Shown piece after piece: positions 74 through 11,788 of a stretch of DNA of 23,581 bases. The stretch lies in IMG/VR virus record IMGVR_UViG_3300002231_000844, positions 130 through 23,710 of that record. One strand, 5' to 3'. Every line of letters begins with the position of its first letter. Within the stretch, counting starts at the first letter, position 1. The stretch is from a virus. Position numbers and translations under genes: made by a program. Below the pieces are notes generated by a model. The model saw only the letters and a list, made by a program, of their open reading frames with translations. It searched no databases and was not told the DNA's origin.

Positions 74-304
74 CTAAGCTGGGTATATCAGTAAAATATC
101 GCCTTGGACAAGGGCGACAAAATATCCGTCGCCAATAGGCCCAGTTTTTATAAGGTTACGCTGGTGATTAACAAACCTTAGGACGTATTCTTTACTTACC
201 TCCGTATACGTATTGTCGGATTGTATGACGTAAAAAGAACTTGCCAAGTCCACTAGCTCAGGTGCTTTGTGAGAGTAAGCGCGACAGATGGGGTTGTTTG
301 CCAT
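74..304 (-). CDS. Small leaderless accessory gene (76 aa)
   Basis: I do not recognise this family. The 76-aa product starts MANNPIC and has a central FYVIQSD segment followed by a helix (VSKEYVLRFVNHQ). That central layout resembles the product at 906-1086 (LYVIKS, then SRSDIILSLKDM), so the two are probably distant paralogs. The ATG is 6 nt after a TAGAAT box with TTGCGC 17 bp further upstream, so the transcript probably starts at the ATG itself; there is no Shine-Dalgarno sequence. The gene is followed by a CCCCTAAACT-type hairpin at 33-57. It sits in the repeated-cassette region, the usual place for small host-takeover or anti-defence genes in T4-like phages; that role is inference only. 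Confidence 0.6.
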   Translation of the reverse strand: MANNPICRAYSHKAPELVDLASSFYVIQSDNTYTEVSKEYVLRFVNHQRNLIKTGPIGDGYFVALVQGDILLIYPA

Positions 305-339
305 ACCCCTATTCTAGGGGAGCGTATTCTAGAGCGCAA
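305..339 (-). promoter_or_regulatory. Leaderless promoter for 74-304
   Basis: Minus strand: TTGCGC at 339-334, 17-bp spacer, TAGAAT at 316-311, then exactly 6 nt to the ATG. The expected transcription start is at or within a base of the ATG. The spacer contains TCTAGA flanked by GCGC/GCGT, a possible operator half-site arrangement. Confidence 0.65.
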
Positions 340-383
340 GGGTAAACTTGGAAATCTTCTAGGTTATTTTGTACGGTTTAGGC

Positions 384-413
384 TTGACAAGCGATTGTGC
401 GCTATGGTACACT
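384..413 (+). promoter_or_regulatory. TTGACA promoter copy with degenerate -10
   Basis: TTGACA (384-389), 18 bp, TACACT (408-413). It has the conserved upstream block (taaacttggaaatcttc... ttttgtacggtttaggc) but diverges after the GTAC, so it lacks the usual downstream hairpin/T-run. It may be a decayed copy. Confidence 0.45.
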
Positions 414-469
414 GAAGATAGACGCTGGAATCTCGCATCGCCAGAAAGTATATTTAAGCTTCTATCTGT

Positions 470-499
470 ATCGTACCATAGCGCACAATCGCTTGTCAA
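470..499 (-). promoter_or_regulatory. Inverted TTGACA promoter copy
   Basis: Minus strand TTGACA (499-494), 18 bp, TACGAT (475-470). It points toward the gene at 74-304 through the decayed plus copy, and is one arm of a 43-bp perfect inverted repeat with 544-586. Confidence 0.55.
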
Positions 500-543
500 G
501 TCTAAACTCCACAAAATAACTCAAAAGATTATCAAGTTTACTA

Positions 544-573
544 TTGACAAGCGATTGTGCGCTATGGTACGAT
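544..573 (+). promoter_or_regulatory. TTGACA promoter copy
   Basis: Consensus -35 TTGACA (544-549), 18-bp spacer, TACGAT (568-573). Followed by the repeated element GAAGCTAAAGTTTGGGCCACC and a T-run at 610-614. It fires toward the 3' end of the minus gene at 613-906. Confidence 0.6.
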
Positions 574-579
574 ACAGAT

Positions 580-614
580 AGAAGCTAAAGTTTGGGCCAC
601 CCTGGAGTGTTTTT
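580..614 (+). ncRNA. Candidate short repeated RNA, copy 1
   Basis: Predicted from a start about 7 nt after the -10 box at 568-573 to the T-run at 610-614, about 35 nt. It contains the conserved GAAGCTAAAGTTTGGGCCACC; the hairpin before the T-run is weak here (CCTGGAG instead of CGAAAGG). No coding potential. Confidence 0.3.
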
Positions 615-906
615 AAGGTTGCTCTTTGTCCCAGTTTTGAGCGGGGAGAAGTGGAATATTAGGTGGCTTGGGGAGAATCATATCCTGGACTTCCTCATTA
701 GTCATTTTAAGGCCCGTCACTGCGTCAAAGTATACCGTAGTATGTAATGCCATATCTGAGCAAACAAGAGCACAGCGTCCACTAGGGTAACGCCGGATAG
801 TCTCTCGGCCAGCATTGTAAGGTACGATATTATCACCTACCCTTTCCAGCCATTCTTCGACTGTTTCTCCCCCTAATCGAGAATACTTGAGAATATATCC
901 TAGCAT
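613..906 (-). CDS. Small accessory protein (97 aa), coupled to upstream gene
   Basis: Unrecognised 97-aa protein starting MLGYILKYSR. Its ATG overlaps the TGA of the upstream gene (TGATG), so it is probably translated by termination-reinitiation. A TTG three bases upstream is possible but less likely. The first half is polar and helical (GGETVEEWLERVGDN). The second half has a strand-turn-helix pattern (TTVYFDAVTGLKMTNEEVQD) like the C-terminal part of its two cassette neighbours. The C-terminus is Pro-rich. It shares the promoter of 906-1086 and is followed by a regulatory cassette containing two opposing TTGACA promoter copies. Confidence 0.6.
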   Translation of the reverse strand: MLGYILKYSRLGGETVEEWLERVGDNIVPYNAGRETIRRYPSGRCALVCSDMALHTTVYFDAVTGLKMTNEEVQDMILPKPPNIPLLPAQNWDKEQP

Positions 907-1086
907 CAAAAGTTCCCTCTTTCTTCCATATCCTTCAGACTTAGGATGATATCACTACGCGAGAGCCAGCCAGTTTCCCCCGTAGTGTGATTTGATAACG
1001 TATAGGTACTGACAGCCATCCCTATAGGTAATCCAGTCTTCTCCACGCATCGGAACAAAAATGCCTTCGTGCTTGTCGTTTGCCAT
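906..1086 (-). CDS. Small leaderless accessory gene, frameshifted at a G5 run
   Basis: The promoter and first codons match the gene at 74-304: TTGCGC-17-TAGAAT, 6 nt, then ATGGCAAAC. From the ATG at 1086 the frame reads MANDKHEG...QYLYVIKS and stops after about 43 codons. Skipping one G in the GGGGG run leads into ETGWLSRSDIILSLKDMEE and a TGA at 906-908, which overlaps the ATG of the next gene (TGATG). The combined product (about 59 aa) aligns in outline with the 74-304 product around Y-V-I-Q/K-S and the following helix. An uninterrupted frame from an ATG at 1121 also exists, but its start lies inside the -35 box, so I think it is spurious at its N-terminus. An extra G in the assembly, a real mutation or +1 recoding are all possible. 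Confidence 0.5.
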
Positions 1087-1121
1087 ACCCCTATTCTAGG
1101 GAAGCGCATTCTAGAGCGCAA
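1087..1121 (-). promoter_or_regulatory. Leaderless promoter for 906-1086
   Basis: Minus strand: TTGCGC (1121-1116), 17 bp, TAGAAT (1098-1093), 6 nt, ATG. Near-identical to the promoter at 305-339. The -35/spacer contains GCGCTCTAGAATGCGC, an inverted GCGC pair around TCTAGA. Confidence 0.65.
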
Positions 1122-1165
1122 GCCTAAACTTGGAAATCTTTCAAGTTATTTTGTACGGTTTAGGC

Positions 1166-1195
1166 TTGACAAGCGATTGTGCGCTATGGTACGAT
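1166..1195 (+). promoter_or_regulatory. TTGACA promoter copy
   Basis: TTGACA (1166-1171), 18 bp, TACGAT (1190-1195). Divergent from the leaderless promoter at 1087-1121, with the two -35 boxes about 45 bp apart. Downstream are a CCC-GAAA-GGG hairpin and a T-run. Confidence 0.6.
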
Positions 1196-1201
1196 ACAGG
1201 T

Positions 1202-1236
1202 AGAAGCTAAAGTTTGGGCCACCCGAAAGGGTTTTT
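1202..1236 (+). ncRNA. Candidate short repeated RNA, copy 2
   Basis: Promoter at 1166-1195, transcript about 35 nt ending in ACCC-GAAA-GGGT plus T-run, a minimal intrinsic-terminator shape. An alternative TTTGGG/CCCGAA pairing in the same RNA would exclude the terminator hairpin. Read-through would include the strong hairpin 1250-1276 and become antisense to the 3' end of 1293-1538. Confidence 0.35.
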
Positions 1237-1249
1237 AAGAAAGTGGAAT

Positions 1250-1276
1250 CCCCCTAAACTCCAATAGTTTAGGGGG
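1250..1276 (-). terminator. Hairpin after 1293-1538
   Basis: Perfect 11-bp stem, CCCCCTAAACT / AGTTTAGGGGG, loop of 5. It lies 17 nt past the stop of 1293-1538 on the minus strand and downstream of the short plus RNA. Confidence 0.45.
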
Positions 1277-1292
1277 TTCGCAAGCAACTTCG

Positions 1293-1538
1293 CTAGTCGC
1301 GGAACATATTCTTTCTATAACACTCGATAATGTCGGGCAAGTCTTGGCGAGGAAAAAACTCCACTAGGGCTTCATGCGCGGCCTCAGAACATCCAAGCGG
1401 TACGATGGCGGACACGGTGCTACTTTGCCACGCTAGGTCGAGCCACCTTTCCATGCTGGCGTCTGGTTGATTCTCGCGGATTTCCAGCGCGAGACGCGCG
1501 AGAATGCGGAGGGCGTAAGGAGAAAGAGGAGCGGACAT
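1293..1538 (-). CDS. Small leaderless accessory gene (81 aa), paralog of 1906-2211
   Basis: Family not recognised. The 81-aa protein is mainly helical with Arg/Leu-rich amphipathic stretches. It aligns with the 1906-2211 product: shared MSAPL start, a W.LD.AW core, a central P-containing segment and a late A...LV.F..R pattern. The ATG lies 6 nt after TACGAT, with TTGCGC 17 bp upstream, so a leaderless transcript is predicted; no Shine-Dalgarno is visible. An 11-bp perfect hairpin at 1250-1276 follows the stop. Base composition is more GC-rich than the core genes, which suggests horizontal acquisition. Confidence 0.6.
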   Translation of the reverse strand: MSAPLSPYALRILARLALEIRENQPDASMERWLDLAWQSSTVSAIVPLGCSEAAHEALVEFFPRQDLPDIIECYRKNMFRD

Positions 1539-1573
1539 GACTATATCGTACTAAAGCGCATTCTAGAGCGCAA
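1539..1573 (-). promoter_or_regulatory. Leaderless promoter for 1293-1538
   Basis: Minus strand TTGCGC, 17 bp, TACGAT, 6 nt, ATG. It uses the same -10 hexamer (TACGAT) as the divergent TTGACA promoters of this region and the GCGC-TCTAGA-ATGCGC spacer. Confidence 0.65.
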
Positions 1574-1617
1574 GCCTAAACTTGGAAATCTTCTAGGTTA
1601 TTTTGTAAAGTTTGAGC

Positions 1618-1647
1618 TTGACAAGCGATTGTGCGCTATGGTACGAT
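1618..1647 (+). promoter_or_regulatory. TTGACA promoter copy
   Basis: TTGACA (1618-1623), 18 bp, TACGAT (1642-1647). Divergent from the leaderless promoter at 1539-1573 and facing the inverted copy at 1703-1732. Confidence 0.6.
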
Positions 1648-1719
1648 ACAGATAGAAGCTAAAGTTTGGGCCACCAGAAAGGGTTTTTAAGCTTCTATCT
1701 GTATCGTACCATAGCGCAC
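1631..1719. repeat. 30-bp perfect inverted repeat
   Basis: 1631-1660 and 1690-1719 are exact reverse complements separated by 29 bp. The arms are the 3' halves of two promoter copies facing each other. Confidence 0.85.
1654..1688 (+). ncRNA. Candidate short repeated RNA, copy 3
   Basis: Promoter at 1618-1647. The same GAAGCTAAAGTTTGGGCCACC block, then AGAAAGGGTTTTT. Immediately downstream the sequence turns into the inverted promoter copy, so a longer transcript would fold back on its own 5' end (stem of up to 13 bp). Confidence 0.3.
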
Positions 1720-1732
1720 AGTATCTTGTCAA
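1703..1732 (-). promoter_or_regulatory. Inverted TTGACA promoter copy
   Basis: Minus strand TTGACA (1732-1727), 18 bp, TACGAT (1708-1703). The spacer starts differently from other copies (AGATACTGTGCGC rather than AGCGATTGTGCGC). It forms a 30-bp perfect inverted repeat with 1631-1660. Confidence 0.55.
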
Positions 1733-1776
1733 TGGTAAACTGGGAAATCTTCTAGGTTATTTTGTAAAGTTTAAGG

Positions 1777-1806
1777 TTGACAAGGGATTGTGCGCTATGG
1801 TACGAT
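1777..1806 (+). promoter_or_regulatory. TTGACA promoter copy
   Basis: TTGACA (1777-1782), 18 bp, TACGAT (1801-1806), with the conserved upstream block and the CCC-GAAA-GGG-TTTTT element downstream. Confidence 0.6.
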
Positions 1807-1812
1807 ACAGGT

Positions 1813-1847
1813 AGAAGCTGAAGTTTGGGCCACCCGAAAGGGTTTTT
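1813..1847 (+). ncRNA. Candidate short repeated RNA, copy 4
   Basis: Promoter at 1777-1806. The block has one change (GCTGAAG for GCTAAAG), the ACCC-GAAA-GGGT hairpin and T-run are intact, and the strong hairpin at 1861-1887 follows. Confidence 0.35.
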
Positions 1848-1860
1848 AAGAAAGTGGAGT

Positions 1861-1887
1861 CCCCCTAAACTCTAATAGTTTAGGGGG
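1861..1887 (-). terminator. Hairpin after 1906-2211
   Basis: Perfect 11-bp stem of the same sequence family as 1250-1276, with only the loop changed (CTAAT versus CCAAT). Confidence 0.45.
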
Positions 1888-1905
1888 GATTCGTAAGTAC
1901 CTATC

Positions 1906-2211
1906 TTAGGATAGGCCTAGGATAAGGCGAGGATATTGCGCAGTGATGTAGGTAGGTTGGGGATATTCTAATCCTAGAACATACTCTTTGCGCTCTAAAA
2001 AGTCTACTAGGTGGCCGTAGGCGTCGCCTTTCACAAGATATGGGATATCACACTGGCGTTCAACAATATCCCAGGCGTGGTCTAGTTGCCAATCTAGAGT
2101 TTTTTCAGGGTAAAGAAGTAGTACCGCGCGAGATATGTAGGCGATATCGGCATGTTGCTTATCATTGATTACAACGACGGGAGCGGAGTCAGACGGAAGC
2201 GGAGCGGACAT
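1906..2211 (-). CDS. Small leaderless accessory gene (101 aa), paralog of 1293-1538
   Basis: Unrecognised 101-aa protein. The middle (ISRAVLLLYPEKTLDWQLDH then AWDIVERQ and HLVDFLERKEY) matches the layout of the 1293-1538 product, while the N-terminal insert (SDSAPVVVINDKQ) and a longer C-terminal tail are specific to this copy. Promoter, spacing (TACGAT, 6 nt, ATG) and first codons (ATGTCCGCTCC) are nearly identical between the two, so the regulatory cassette and the gene start probably duplicated together and the coding parts then diverged. A perfect 11-bp hairpin at 1861-1887 follows the stop. Confidence 0.6.
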   Translation of the reverse strand: MSAPLPSDSAPVVVINDKQHADIAYISRAVLLLYPEKTLDWQLDHAWDIVERQCDIPYLVKGDAYGHLVDFLERKEYVLGLEYPQPTYITAQYPRLILGLS

Positions 2212-2246
2212 GGTTATATCGTACTAAAGCGCATTCTAGAGCGCAA
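2212..2246 (-). promoter_or_regulatory. Leaderless promoter for 1906-2211
   Basis: Minus strand TTGCGC, 17 bp, TACGAT, 6 nt, ATG; essentially identical to the promoter of 1293-1538 apart from bases in the 6-nt interval. Confidence 0.65.
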
Positions 2247-2290
2247 GGATAAACTTGGAAATCTTTCAAGTTATTTTGTACGGTTTAGGC

Positions 2291-2320
2291 TTGACAAGCG
2301 ATTGTGCGCTATGCTAAGAT
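2291..2320 (+). promoter_or_regulatory. TTGACA promoter copy with TAAGAT -10
   Basis: TTGACA (2291-2296), 18 bp, TAAGAT (2315-2320). This last copy has a better -10 box and is not followed by the short hairpin element. Its transcript would run into the gene-less G-poor tract and then antisense to the minus block. Confidence 0.6.
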
Positions 2321-2621: not shown

Positions 2622-2933
2622 CTAATTACTATGCCAAACTTCGCAAACCAAGGGAATATTTTTAGACAGCAATCTAACTTCTACGCCAAGGAATACTTCG
2701 TCTACGTCCCCTATCCTCTCAGATATAAGATTAACCCAATCCTTCTTCTTAACTTCAAGATATTTATCTTTTGAGATATACAACTCATTGGGAAGCACAC
2801 TCTCCCATGTAGTGTAATCCCTCCCCATAAGTCTATATTTTGCACCTCTATAGGATGTTATCTTAGGTATTCCAAAGTATTCTAAGATTTCCTTATATGG
2901 GATATATAAGACCTTCTTTTTAATTATTTCCAT
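2622..2933 (-). CDS. Hypothetical protein (103 aa), tandem paralog of 2936-3268
   Basis: Unrecognised 103-aa protein. It shares a clear pattern with the gene immediately upstream: MEI...KVL.IPY.EI.EYFGIPKI at the N-terminus, then LPN.LYI, and V.VR.LSK near the C-terminus. The conserved first 25 residues could be a small DNA-binding or interaction helix; this is a guess. AGAAGAG upstream of the ATG serves as a ribosome binding site. It is the last gene of the minus block. Confidence 0.65.
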   Translation of the reverse strand: MEIIKKKVLYIPYKEILEYFGIPKITSYRGAKYRLMGRDYTTWESVLPNELYISKDKYLEVKKKDWVNLISERIGDVDEVFLGVEVRLLSKNIPLVCEVWHSN

Positions 2934-2935
2934 TT

Positions 2936-3268
2936 CTATATCTCTTCTCTGTGATTATACCGTACTACTATTCCAAACTTCGCTAGGCTAGGGAACATCT
3001 TTGACAGAGTTCTAACTTCCACTGTACCCCCGTTCACTGAGCTTATATCAATTTTACTCTCTATCAACTTTTGGTACTTAAACTTATTAAATGTAACATA
3101 GCCCCCTCTCTCAATATACAGCTTGTTAGGAAGTTGGTATCTTAGATTAGAATCTAGATATGTCGGATACGCCACTATCATTCCGTAATTTATTATTTTA
3201 GGTATTCCGAAATACTCTATGATTTCCTCATAAGGTATGTGTAAAACTTTACTTCTAGTAATTTCCAT
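2936..3268 (-). CDS. Hypothetical protein (110 aa), tandem paralog of 2622-2933
   Basis: Paralog of the next gene, two bases away. The N-terminal IPYEEIIEYFGIPKI and late EVRTLSKMFP motifs are shared, while the middle parts differ. GGAG about 8 nt before the ATG is a good ribosome binding site, and the ATG follows the TGA of 3269-3517 directly. Function unknown. Confidence 0.65.
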   Translation of the reverse strand: MEITRSKVLHIPYEEIIEYFGIPKIINYGMIVAYPTYLDSNLRYQLPNKLYIERGGYVTFNKFKYQKLIESKIDISSVNGGTVEVRTLSKMFPSLAKFGIVVRYNHREEI

Positions 3269-4876: not shown

Positions 4877-4997
4877 TGCACTTTACCATAAGACTTTCCA
4901 TTTCGTCCACAATGACAGATACATTACGAACCCCATCCCTTCGCAACTTGTCGCACAATTTACGTAAGTTGTTAGCTAATTTACGGCGTGTCATCAT
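4866..4997 (-). CDS. Tiny basic protein (43 aa)
   Basis: A 43-codon frame starting MMTRRKLANNLRKLCDKLRR. It fills the gap between 4981-5271 and 4499-4876 exactly: its start overlaps the end of the former and its stop overlaps the start of the latter, the same coupling seen along the operon. The first half is strongly basic and helical, the second acidic (VSVIVDEMESLM). It may bind RNA or DNA; unproven. Confidence 0.55.
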   Translation of the reverse strand: MMTRRKLANNLRKLCDKLRRDGVRNVSVIVDEMESLMVKCNER

Positions 4998-5271
4998 TCT
5001 TCACTGGCGGTACATACTCCCAGGTCGCACCATCTTTCAAAGATGCCCATAGAATCCCAGGGATATAAAAGGTTTTAGTTCCTTCTTTATCAGACTGAAC
5101 CGTAATGTAATATACATCTTGATAACCTGCAATCATCGAGTATGTTGTGTAAGCTCCTTTGTATATTACCTCTCCCTTAAAAGCATCTTGCTCAGAAGGG
5201 AAATCCCAAGGAACTAATAAAAACGCTGCAATGATAAATGCAGCTAGTAATGTAGCGCATAGGTCTTTCAT
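4981..5271 (-). CDS. Small membrane-anchored or exported protein (96 aa)
   Basis: The N-terminus is Met-Lys-Asp followed by about 18 hydrophobic residues (LCATLLAAFIIAAFLLVPW), a signal anchor or uncleaved signal peptide. The remaining roughly 70 residues are beta-rich and polar (VYYITVQSDKEGTKTFYIPG) and would lie outside the inner membrane. Possible roles include superinfection exclusion or lysis regulation, but no family is recognised. GGAG about 8 nt upstream of the ATG is a good ribosome binding site. Confidence 0.6.
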   Translation of the reverse strand: MKDLCATLLAAFIIAAFLLVPWDFPSEQDAFKGEVIYKGAYTTYSMIAGYQDVYYITVQSDKEGTKTFYIPGILWASLKDGATWEYVPPVKNDDTP

Positions 5272-5273
5272 AT

Positions 5274-6170
5274 TTAAACTCCACTATAATCTCTCATTCT
5301 TTGCCAAAACATTCCAAGTGTAAGTCTCATGGACTTTATCCTACTTGGCTTATACGGCTTTGCTTTAATTTCACCTGTTAGAGCCTTCATAGACTCTGTA
5401 AAGCTTCCATCCCTATTGAAGAAATCCTTTCCTAGGAATAGAATACAACTCATATGTAATTCAGTAGCTTGCTCTACCATTTCTCTACAGTAGGCTCCCG
5501 CTTCTTTAGTATAGAGTCCTTCATGTCCTACTCTAGAATCATCCTTCCCTCTAAACCCCCAATGCAGTTCTCCAATTGTGAAGTCCTGATGTGGAAACCA
5601 TTTTCTAAGTCTACGCAAATGTTTAGGTGATGCACCAGCATTTCCGTACATATGGAAGTTGTACATATTTGGATAAGGCATACCGTAATTCCAATTATCT
5701 CTGAAAGAAGATAAGTTTGCAACTGCTCCACGAACACCTGAATCATCTTGTACTTCTTTTGTAGCACTCATAGTATAGTCCATAAGTGTTTTATAACCCT
5801 TCATACCTGAACCAGCTACCATTGAGTTACCAACACTTATAATAACCCCATAAGTGAAGTAGTTTAGTACTTTTTGAGTAACATCTTCTTCTCTTGCGAA
5901 ATTAACGTGTGGTGTGAATCCCAATCTAAGACCTTCAGTAACAGCATCTAGAGCGTTATTTAAGTCTCTCTTTACATCATGGATTCTAATCCCTAAAGGA
6001 ACATCTAAGTGTTGTACAGGTACAGTATCATACCCAAATGCCTGTAACCATTGACTACAAAACCCTTTGGCGTAATCCCGACCTTCTTCAATGAAGAATC
6101 CTGGGAGTATTGGTCGTTGTTCTTTCTTCATGTTAGTCTTAAGTCTTGTGTCCGCTTCTTGCGGTTTCAT
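5274..6170 (-). CDS. Possible glycoside-hydrolase-like TIM-barrel protein (298 aa)
   Basis: The 298-aa protein has a pattern reminiscent of clan GH-A hydrolases: alternating strands and helices, an NFHMYGNAG segment in the middle and a strand ending in an acidic residue (DFTIGELHWGF) that would fit the nucleophile Glu. I cannot identify the acid/base Glu or the exact family, so substrate and even activity are uncertain; cell-wall or surface-polysaccharide degradation is one option. No signal peptide. The start could be the ATG at 6170, overlapping the upstream gene by 32 nt, or the ATG at 6131 (MKKEQRPILPG), which fits the domain boundary better. Confidence 0.4.
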   Translation of the reverse strand: MKPQEADTRLKTNMKKEQRPILPGFFIEEGRDYAKGFCSQWLQAFGYDTVPVQHLDVPLGIRIHDVKRDLNNALDAVTEGLRLGFTPHVNFAREEDVTQKVLNYFTYGVIISVGNSMVAGSGMKGYKTLMDYTMSATKEVQDDSGVRGAVANLSSFRDNWNYGMPYPNMYNFHMYGNAGASPKHLRRLRKWFPHQDFTIGELHWGFRGKDDSRVGHEGLYTKEAGAYCREMVEQATELHMSCILFLGKDFFNRDGSFTESMKALTGEIKAKPYKPSRIKSMRLTLGMFWQRMRDYSGV

Positions 6171-6684: not shown

Positions 6685-6972
6685 TTACCCTTCCTTAATG
6701 TTATACTGTTTCATAACTCTTTCTCTTTCCTGTACAATAGCACTGTTTAGCTCTTTTGGCACATAGCTTAAATCTCTAAAGAAATAAGCGTCTTCTGGTT
6801 CCATATAGTCATTAGCAACAATCTCTTCTTTCACAGAACCGTCTTCCTGCTCTGTCTCCTTAATTAGGTAAGAAGTGGGGTCATACACATTATAGTCGTC
6901 TCCTAGTTCCTCCTTCAACTCTTCTGATAACTTCTCATAGACTCTTACACGATAACGAAATTCTCCTTCCAT
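6685..6972 (-). CDS. Hypothetical acidic protein (95 aa), leaderless start
   Basis: Unrecognised 95-aa protein rich in Glu (LSEELKEELGDD, KETEQEDGSVKEEIV). The ATG is exactly 6 nt after a perfect TATAAT (6984-6979 on the minus strand), the same spacing as in the left-end genes, so its mRNA probably begins at or near the ATG. It is the promoter-proximal gene of the block that runs left to about 2622. Confidence 0.6.
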   Translation of the reverse strand: MEGEFRYRVRVYEKLSEELKEELGDDYNVYDPTSYLIKETEQEDGSVKEEIVANDYMEPEDAYFFRDLSYVPKELNSAIVQERERVMKQYNIKEG

Positions 6973-7025: not shown

Positions 7026-7247
7026 CTATTTTAAGCTAAACTTCAATCTTTCCTTTTCGTCATAAGGGTTTATACTGTACCTTAACATCATCCTTATCAA
7101 AAATGATTCAGGGAAGTCTAGTGGCCTCCTTACACCTTCCCCGTATGTGTAGTAACCTCTTTCAATATCTCTCTCCTCAGCCTTCCTAAATTCATTGAAA
7201 AACCCTAAGATGCCTGTGTCCTCCTCTTCAAGACTCCTTTTTACCAT
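7026..7247 (-). CDS. Hypothetical protein (73 aa)
   Basis: Unrecognised, charged 73-aa protein (EFRKAEERDIERGYYTYGEG, then a basic C-terminus). TATAAT lies 7 nt upstream of the ATG, so a leaderless or near-leaderless transcript is expected. It is divergent from 7268-7822 with only 20 bp between the two start codons. Confidence 0.55.
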   Translation of the reverse strand: MVKRSLEEEDTGILGFFNEFRKAEERDIERGYYTYGEGVRRPLDFPESFLIRMMLRYSINPYDEKERLKFSLK

Positions 7248-10292: not shown

Positions 10293-10303
10293 TATATAAT
10301 AGT
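10293..10303 (+). promoter_or_regulatory. Late-type TATATAAT box at terminase start
   Basis: TATATAATAGT directly precedes the ATG at 10304, with no Shine-Dalgarno. The palindromic TATATA also reads on the minus strand 8 nt before the glycosyltransferase ATG. Confidence 0.5.
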
Positions 10304-11788
10304 ATGGAATCTGTAGATTATAGTGAGGAGTATAGGAAATGCTCCGAAAGTTGTGAATATTTCATACTTAACTATATCAAGATAAAACACCCTGTAAAAG
10401 GTATCATACCTTTTGCCTTATACCCATTTCAGAAAAGGATAGTTTCTGAAATCTCTACTCATAGGTTTAATATAATTAGGAAGTTTAGACAAGCGGGTGT
10501 TACTACCATTATGTGTGCATACGCTCTATGGTATATAATACTTCAAAGAAAATAAGAATATTATGGTGGTTTCCATAGGTGAAAGAGAGTCTAACTTATT
10601 TTTATCCCGCGTTGTTGAAATGTATGACTGGTTGCCTGAGTTCCTACAACCTTCTATCATAAAGAAGAATGTCCACGTGTTACATCTAGAAACAGGCGGG
10701 ATTATAAAATCACAACCAGCAGGTGCTGGTCGTTCAGAAGCAGTGTCCTTACTTATAGTTGATGAGGCCGCTTTCATTGATAACATGAGAGAGTTCTGGA
10801 AAGCAATCTACCCTACTATTTCAACTGGTGGTGAATGTGTTATGCTTTCAACAGTTAACGGAATGTCTAATGTATACTATGAACTTTACAGAGACGCTGT
10901 AGCAGGTATTAATGACTTCAATGTAATTGATATTCATTGGAGAGAACATCCTGATTATGATGATGAGTGGGCTAAAGTAACAAGACCTAACCTAGGTGAA
11001 AAAGGTTGGATGCAAGAAGTACTTTGTCAATTCCTAGGAACAGGTGATACTTTCATTGATAGGGAGACTTTAGCTAAGTTAGTTGGGGAGGTAGATGTTA
11101 AGTATAAGCTATCCCATAACAAGAGAATGAGGACTTGGAAGAGAGCAGAACCTGGGAAGGAGTACTTAATCTGCGCCGACCCTGCGTTTGGTGTAGAGAG
11201 AGATAACTCAGCATTCCATGTATTATGTCTTAATACAGGAGAGCAGGTAGCTGAATTTTACTCTAACTCAACTAAAGTAAAGGAGTTCTCCCAGATAATC
11301 TATCAGACAGCATTAGAGTATAATATGGCACTTGTGGCCTGTGAAAGAAACTCTTTAGGGATAATAGTTATTGAAGAGATATTTGAAGGTCTTGAATATG
11401 AAAATATGTGGTTTGATGAGAAAGGGGAGCCAGGAGTGCTGTTAAGTAGAAACGGGCGTGATGCTGTATTAGAAGCTCTACAAGACTGTCTCTACCTAAA
11501 TAAAGTGAAAGTGAACTCTAAGAGAACAGTAGATGAGATAACTACATTCATTACTACAGATACAGGGAAAGTACAGGCTGATAAAAGACTACTACGACGA
11601 CCTTGTTACAAGTTTAGCTATTGGCTGTCATGTATTATCAAAAGTTAGAGTTCTCAGGTCAACTTCCCTCTATGGAAGCCCAACACGCTACAGAAGAACC
11701 TTTAGGAATACCTTTGCTCAGTTCACATGAGTATATCAATGTAGATAGAGAGTTTGAAGATTACAGAAAGTGGATGTTAAATGGATAG
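10304..11788 (+). CDS. terL: Terminase large subunit (gp17-like), three +1 shifts in sequence
   Basis: This is the T4-type packaging ATPase/nuclease, about 493 aa if all segments are joined (T4 gp17 is 610). In order: adenine-binding-like LYPFQKRIV, a deviant Walker A (KFRQAGVTT), Walker B LLIVDEAAF, coupling motif STVNG, and a RuvC-type nuclease with Asp in CADPAFG, Glu in ACERNSLG and Asp in YYDDLV. The coding sequence is broken three times, each by one extra base: near 10541-10544 (CTTC), in AAAA at 11583-11586 and near 11618-11620. Skipping them restores KENKNIMVV, ADKDYYDDLVTSLALAVMYY and a C-terminus ending WMLNG, whose stop overlaps the portal start by 8 nt. The start is the ATG at 10304, not the upstream TTG. 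Confidence 0.85.

Follow-up and report, generated by a model that had tools for sequence, protein, structure and literature searches.

An array of divergent promoter cassettes fused to start codons at the left end of a T4-superfamily phage contig

Results

We analysed bases 130-23710 of the 23,710-bp IMG/VR virus record IMGVR_UViG_3300002231_000844, which originates from an environmental sample; this stretch of 23,581 nucleotides is referred to here as the window. At its far left, small minus-strand genes are separated by repeated pairs of divergent promoters. We favour, with somewhat better than even confidence, the reading that this array is a leaderless, divergent variant of the mobile promoter-terminator cassettes of T4-type phages, laid out as tandem early-gene cassettes in a hyperplastic region.

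Two promoter types make up the array, P1 (TTGACA-18-TAnnnT) and P2 (TTGCGC-17-TAnnAT). P1 occurs eight times, on the plus strand at 384, 544, 1166, 1618, 1777 and 2291 and on the minus strand at 499 and 1732, while the four P2 copies (339, 1121, 1573 and 2246) are all on the minus strand. These are the copies listed in a preliminary description of this DNA, and they lie far above chance: Markov-shuffled copies of the first 2.4 kb contain on average 0.02 P1, 0.007 P2 and 0.001 occurrences of P2 followed by 6 nt and ATG. The remaining 21 kb of the window hold neither P1 nor P2.

The promoters are arranged in six back-to-back pairs, four P2/P1 and two P1/P1. The pairing around a conserved block thus stands as first described, but the gap between the -35 boxes is exactly 44 bp in six out of six pairs and not 'about 45'. 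A seventh divergent pair, likewise with 44 bp between its -35 boxes, is found in the extra 129 bp to the left of the window (P1 at contig position 77, -35 box of P2 at 32-27), where it is cut by the contig end; the array therefore begins before base 305, the start given in the preliminary description. That account also left out the stem-loops and two convergent P1/P1 pairs (384+/499- and 1618+/1732-). The convergent pairs exist because a 136-bp inverted unit sits in opposite orientations at 454-589 and 1687-1822, so placing the 44-bp block in opposite orientations with P1 flanking it on both sides. Two N are present at contig positions 127 and 129, in the leftmost cassette, and the contig end falls inside the repeat, consistent with assembly trouble at the array.

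Each P2 is fused to a start codon. The distance from the end of the -10 box to the ATG is exactly 6 nt in all four units (genes A, B, C and E), even though the sequence of the spacer varies (ATAACC, ATAGTC, AGGGGT) and two types of -10 box occur. A -10 hexamer normally ends 6 nt ahead of the first transcribed base. The predicted transcription start therefore falls on the A of the ATG and the mRNAs would be leaderless, a consequence that the preliminary description did not draw although it had noted the fusion itself. No Shine-Dalgarno sequence is present at a usable distance from genes A, B, C and E; gene D and most neighbouring genes (F-L and N) have one. If a leaderless start is defined by a -10 box lying 5-8 nt ahead of the start codon in the absence of a Shine-Dalgarno, four of four array units qualify. 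The same rule applied to T4 places the early promoters 11-51 nt upstream, nearly all of them at least 23 nt, and 45 of 69 genes of the T4 early region have a Shine-Dalgarno. The array thus departs from the T4 early arrangement of promoter, leader and ribosome-binding site.

All eight P1 copies of the window match the sigma-70 consensus at 10 of 12 positions and P1 carries a TG extended -10, while P2 matches less well; GCGCT four bases ahead of the -10 box is common to P1 and most P2. These features would suit an explanation in which only P1 matters, as a set of decoys titrating the host RNA polymerase or a host regulator, with P2 weak or inactive. Such an explanation leaves both the exact 6-nt fusion to ATG and the 3' stem-loops without a reason, and we consider it very improbable.

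The cassettes appear to have exchanged segments. The recombination test used the five P2/P1 units (c0, c1, c3, c4 and c6). By P2 type, c0, c1 and c3 stand against c4 and c6, while the left part of the block joins c3 with c6 and the right part joins c0 with c4. Sites are linked inside segments and show four gametes between segments, with P2 type and block type combined in four ways among the five cassettes. Adjacent pairs of informative sites are incompatible in 3 of 15 cases compared to 7.9 expected in random order (P = 0.007). The opening codons move together with P2: genes A and B begin ATGTCCGCTCC and genes C and E begin ATGGCAAAC. Recombination or gene conversion within the array is well supported by this mosaic, which upholds the earlier idea of recombination-prone cassettes as far as reassortment among the cassettes of the array goes. 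A local alignment of genes A and B over 42 residues (z = 5.0) suggests that they are probably distant paralogues, and part of the array may therefore stem from duplication followed by divergence.

On the minus strand, a unit opens with P2, followed after 6 nt by the ATG of a small gene; a second gene that has a Shine-Dalgarno may come next, and then the stem-loop (CCCCCTAAAC-loop-GTTTAGGGGG) and the following unit. The strong 3' stem-loop closes three of the four gene units (E, B and A) and folds strongly in both directions; the antisense promoter and the 44-bp block sit between it and the sense promoter. The arms were also compared with integron-like attC sites, a candidate rejected because they fall off the attC core pattern, as judged by eye.

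P1 would transcribe away from its P2. Folding predicts a structured RNA of ~35-40 nt, followed by GGGTTTTT and then by the stem-loop of the neighbouring unit. Within the unit, conservation is highest in the P1 core (mean pairwise identity of 94 %, compared to 82 % for the block and 81 % for P2), and despite this P1 drives no ORF. The main alternative for its role is that the P1 copies are genes of a multi-copy small RNA (~35-80 nt, structured) acting in trans on the host or on phage mRNA, which the array would serve to produce in quantity, the small proteins being passengers. In addition to the conservation of P1, the RNAs of the six plus and two minus copies have the common start ACAG(A/G)TAGAAGCT (one copy diverged, one truncated), and a hairpin is kept in c2, c3, c4 and c5 despite their different sequences, with z-scores of -3.6 and -2.6 in two copies. 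Against this, the RNA bodies are diverged in c1 and absent in c6, c2 taken over 84 nt folds no better than shuffles (z 0.7), and Rfam returned only microRNA families matching the long inverted repeats, which we judge to be chance matches. Taken together, a trans-acting small RNA seems rather unlikely, and we prefer to see P1 as an insulator that may also keep P2 open.

Gene families found in the right part of the window are those of the large terminase, portal, UvsW-like helicase, baseplate hub, primase and exonuclease; these core families and the synteny with relatives identify the phage as a member of the T4 superfamily. The relatives are uncultured, the best portal identity being 62 %, while isolates reach ~34 % at most (Flavobacterium phage immuto and Microcystis phage Mel-JY01). 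Most genes to the right of 7.8 kb keep synteny with relatives, whereas to its left a single gene (4981-5271) has a homologue in them. The array at the far left is thus placed in a region of the kind termed hyperplastic in T4. The T4-type setting proposed beforehand agrees with this picture of a variable region of small genes that have no database relatives beside a conserved core.

Leaderless starts look like a habit of this clade. Of 414 non-redundant ORFs from the window and its relatives, 33 have TATWAT 5-8 nt ahead of the ATG, an enrichment over the ~2 per position elsewhere, and none of these 33 has a Shine-Dalgarno. The T4 control has the box at this distance in 0 of 49 cases, its late genes showing none; S-RSM4 and Mel-JY01 have none either, and immuto has one. 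The clade box resembles CTATWATAG, which is nearly its own reverse complement, and at 7247/7268 two divergent genes could share the one TATWAT box in the 20-bp gap between them. A further example in the window is at 6972 and others lie in the relatives' records. The genes behind these boxes are apparently leaderless late genes, and the early-type promoters of the array fit the same habit. A cyanophage query for a T4-like gp55 late sigma factor gave no match in six relatives, a search that is uninformative without a positive control.

Features of the array are collected in Table 1.

Table 1. Features of the promoter array and its genes, in window positions
Feature	Position	Strand	Basis
Gene E, 76 aa (MANNPICR...); predicted leaderless start at 304, ATG 6 nt after TAGAAT, no Shine-Dalgarno	74-304	-	ORF
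P2 of gene E, TTGCGC-17-TAGAAT	311-339	-	pattern match
44-bp block between divergent -35 boxes	340-383		alignment
P1, TTGACA-18-TACACT	384-413	+	pattern match
136-bp inverted unit with divergent P1 499-/544+ around 44-bp block; 499- converges on 384+	454-589	-	repeat I1, alignment
Gene D, 97 aa; second in its unit, with Shine-Dalgarno GAGGGA but lacking a 3' stem-loop	613-906	-	ORF
Gene C, 43 aa, predicted leaderless start at 1086; possible frameshift	955-1086	-	ORF
P2 of genes C-D, TTGCGC-17-TAGAAT	1093-1121	-	pattern match
44-bp block	1122-1165		alignment
P1, TTGACA-18-TACGAT, extended -10	1166-1195	+	pattern match
Predicted short P1 RNA: hairpin, then GGGTTTTT	1199-1236	+	folds
Strong stem-loop CCCCCTAAAC...GTTTAGGGGG, 3' end of gene B; P1 RNA arrives from opposite side	1250-1276		repeat, folds
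Stem-loop copies	31-57 (gene E), 1861-1887 (gene A)		repeat, folds
Gene B, 81 aa (MSAPL...), predicted leaderless start at 1538	1293-1538	-	ORF
P2 of gene B, TTGCGC-17-TACGAT	1545-1573	-	pattern match
44-bp block	1574-1617		alignment
P1, converging on 1732- P1	1618-1647	+	pattern match
136-bp inverted unit, opposite orientation, P1 at 1732- and 1777+	1687-1822	+	repeat I1
Gene A, 101 aa (MSAPL...), probable distant paralogue of gene B, predicted leaderless start at 2211	1906-2211	-	ORF, alignment
P2 of gene A, TTGCGC-17-TACGAT	2218-2246	-	pattern match
44-bp block	2247-2290		alignment
Last P1, TTGACA-18-TAAGAT; homology to other copies stops just past it	2291-2320	+	pattern match, alignment

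The reading frame of gene C may be shifted near a GGGGG run at about 975-985; an overlapping frame (906-1121) reads on past its early end and finishes with a Shine-Dalgarno-like sequence for gene D. Beyond the array, two adjacent minus-strand genes at 2622-3268, encoding 103 and 110 aa, are clearly paralogous, and an 18-bp sequence repeated three times in tandem (2564-2617) lies beside the 3' end of the first. A 298-aa protein of the variable region (5274-6170, minus strand) has no match in PHROGs, Pfam or the relatives. The terminase large subunit apparently lies in two frames (10303-10555 and 10563-11648, 84 + 361 aa), which may reflect a frameshift or a sequencing error.

The array proteins and cassette DNA were compared with outside collections. 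Cassette DNA was searched by megablast and sensitive blastn (phages), blastn (plasmids), exact or degenerate patterns (IMG/VR) and an exact 22-mer (GTDB genomes). The cassette DNA and the array proteins tested gave no match in 20 relatives' records, IMG/VR, INPHARED phages, PLSDB plasmids and GTDB genomes. Homologues of genes A, D and E were looked for and not found, the fetched relatives gave no tblastn match to any of the five array genes, and neither Pfam nor PHROGs has a family for these genes. A structure model of gene D (pLDDT 73, made with no alignment) has no Foldseek match below 0.001; the model of gene B (pLDDT 59) was not used. The assignment of these genes to host interaction in the preliminary description is accordingly a guess: they match no known family and the sole usable fold, that of gene D, has no match. 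Among the relatives, 18-mers present in at least 3 copies were screened and set aside as low-complexity or short-period repeats rather than promoter cassettes.

Discussion

The promoters, their spacing and fusion to ATG, the stem-loops, the mosaic structure and the variable region are features of the sequence itself; promoter activity, early timing, leaderless translation, the role of P1 and recombination between phages are inferred. The host sigma-70 polymerase would read P2 early in infection. The P2 mRNA would begin on the A of the ATG and yield the small protein with no need of a ribosome-binding site; any second gene would rely on its Shine-Dalgarno, and the stem-loop would close three of four units. 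P1, near consensus and 44 bp from P2, would fire the opposite way, giving a short structured RNA that stops at a U-tract or at the neighbour's stem-loop, where it collides with the transcript of that unit. P1 would most likely act as an insulator, blocking read-through between units and, through divergent transcription, holding P2 open. The nearly identical stretches of regulatory DNA (~200 bp per unit) may also serve as a substrate for phage homologous recombination, which would duplicate, invert and reassort units.

Repeated promoters with short RNA products, in a phage of the T4 type, could also suggest a replication origin with promoter-primed R-loops and repeated binding sites, like oriE and oriF of T4, whose record annotates transcript-primed origins. 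However, T4 origins are single sites and not seven gene-separated units, and the promoters here alternate with coding genes and stem-loops. An origin is in our estimate highly improbable.

Several observations weigh against reading the array as tandem early-gene cassettes of the phage itself. Five units are few for a recombination test, and the four predicted leaderless starts are repeat copies and hence not independent. Gene D has no stem-loop, and the P1 terminators are weak hairpins. The cassette was not found in the 20 relatives' records, which is where the preliminary description had proposed to look for the block together with TTGACA; the nearest relative has 62 % portal identity and many of these records are fragments. 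The array genes use 17 CGN and 5 AGR arginine codons compared to 74 AGR and 12 CGN in the portal, terminase and helicase genes, and have a GC content of 44-55 % compared to 36-42 % in that core. Finally, no gene spans the junction at 2320-2620, where the contig could be chimeric.

The composition of the array genes possibly reflects recent acquisition, and it also fits a chimeric contig. In the latter case, or if the array were a very recent foreign insert (plasmid, satellite or other phage), it would not be the phage's own early region. The sharp difference in GC and arginine codon bias, the abrupt stop of homology at 2320 and the break of the contig inside a repeat with its two N all agree with this possibility. 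The leaderless habit, on the other hand, is common to the phage clade, the genes at 3.5-4.9 kb are intermediate in codon usage, and hyperplastic genes of T4-type phages are often foreign in composition. We therefore regard a chimera or foreign insert as unlikely.

Several known systems resemble the tandem cassettes in part. The host-takeover module of SPO1 (Herelleviridae) has dense strong early promoters and many small proteins, as the array does, but its genes have ribosome-binding sites and its promoters are not known to lie in repeated divergent cassettes. The promoter-early stem-loop cassettes (PeSLs) of T4-type phages were reportedly first described by Arbiol et al. (2010) and Comeau et al. 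(2014). In line with the resemblance to PeSLs drawn in the preliminary description, the array shares with them the T4-type phage, the variable small-gene region and signs of shuffling. Its repeated sigma-70-like promoters and stem-loops at gene boundaries would be comparable to the PeSL composite, although the antisense promoter and the 44-bp block come between the two. PeSLs are referred to in later work as mediating gene shuffling (PMC4503421, PMC3950731). Unlike PeSLs, the array has its promoter fused to the start codon, a second promoter facing away at a fixed 44 bp and two inverted 136-bp units giving convergent pairs, and its unit was not found in other phages (20 relatives' records and public collections). 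We consider that the array would work like a PeSL, as a variant and not as a proven member, since it is exchange between genomes that defines PeSLs.

The start-associated sequence known as SAS in cluster K mycobacteriophages is a short site directly before the start codon that is linked to translation initiation; the extended form (ESAS) has 17-bp inverted repeats upstream (PMC3203893). Like the array, SAS and ESAS are repeated elements right upstream of many small-gene starts, about half of the SAS having an inverted repeat, but they belong to another phage group, and the description of these sites in that paper reports no divergent promoter pair or gene-end stem-loop (PMC3203893). The array, a promoter pair in a T4-type phage, falls outside the SAS/ESAS definition. 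In the haloarchaeal myovirus HGTV-1, a conserved TATA-like motif with an inverted repeat precedes most ORFs of one genome side and was likened to PeSLs by its authors (PMC3950731). It is similarly a repeated promoter-like element before ORFs, but promoter and host are archaeal and the account of the motif mentions no divergent pair (PMC3950731).

More broadly, it is conceivable, though we hold this only tentatively, that leaderless expression has been taken up by a T4-superfamily clade for its early as well as its late genes. The early region seen here would then consist of self-contained, shuffling promoter-ATG-gene-stem-loop cassettes, each sense promoter lying at a fixed distance from a strong antisense promoter, and the short RNA of the latter would insulate or regulate the units.

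Mobile promoter-terminator cassettes are believed to bring T4-type phages their host-specific small genes, and the cassette of this array also carries the start codon. Any coding sequence recombining in behind it would be expressed at once, with no need for a ribosome-binding site of its own. Such a cassette would offer the phage a simple and testable route to try new early genes. The late-promoter-like box on the start codon across the clade also suggests that leaderless translation is relied on throughout one branch of the T4 superfamily, a dependence that points to hosts and to a way of translating beyond what is known from T4.

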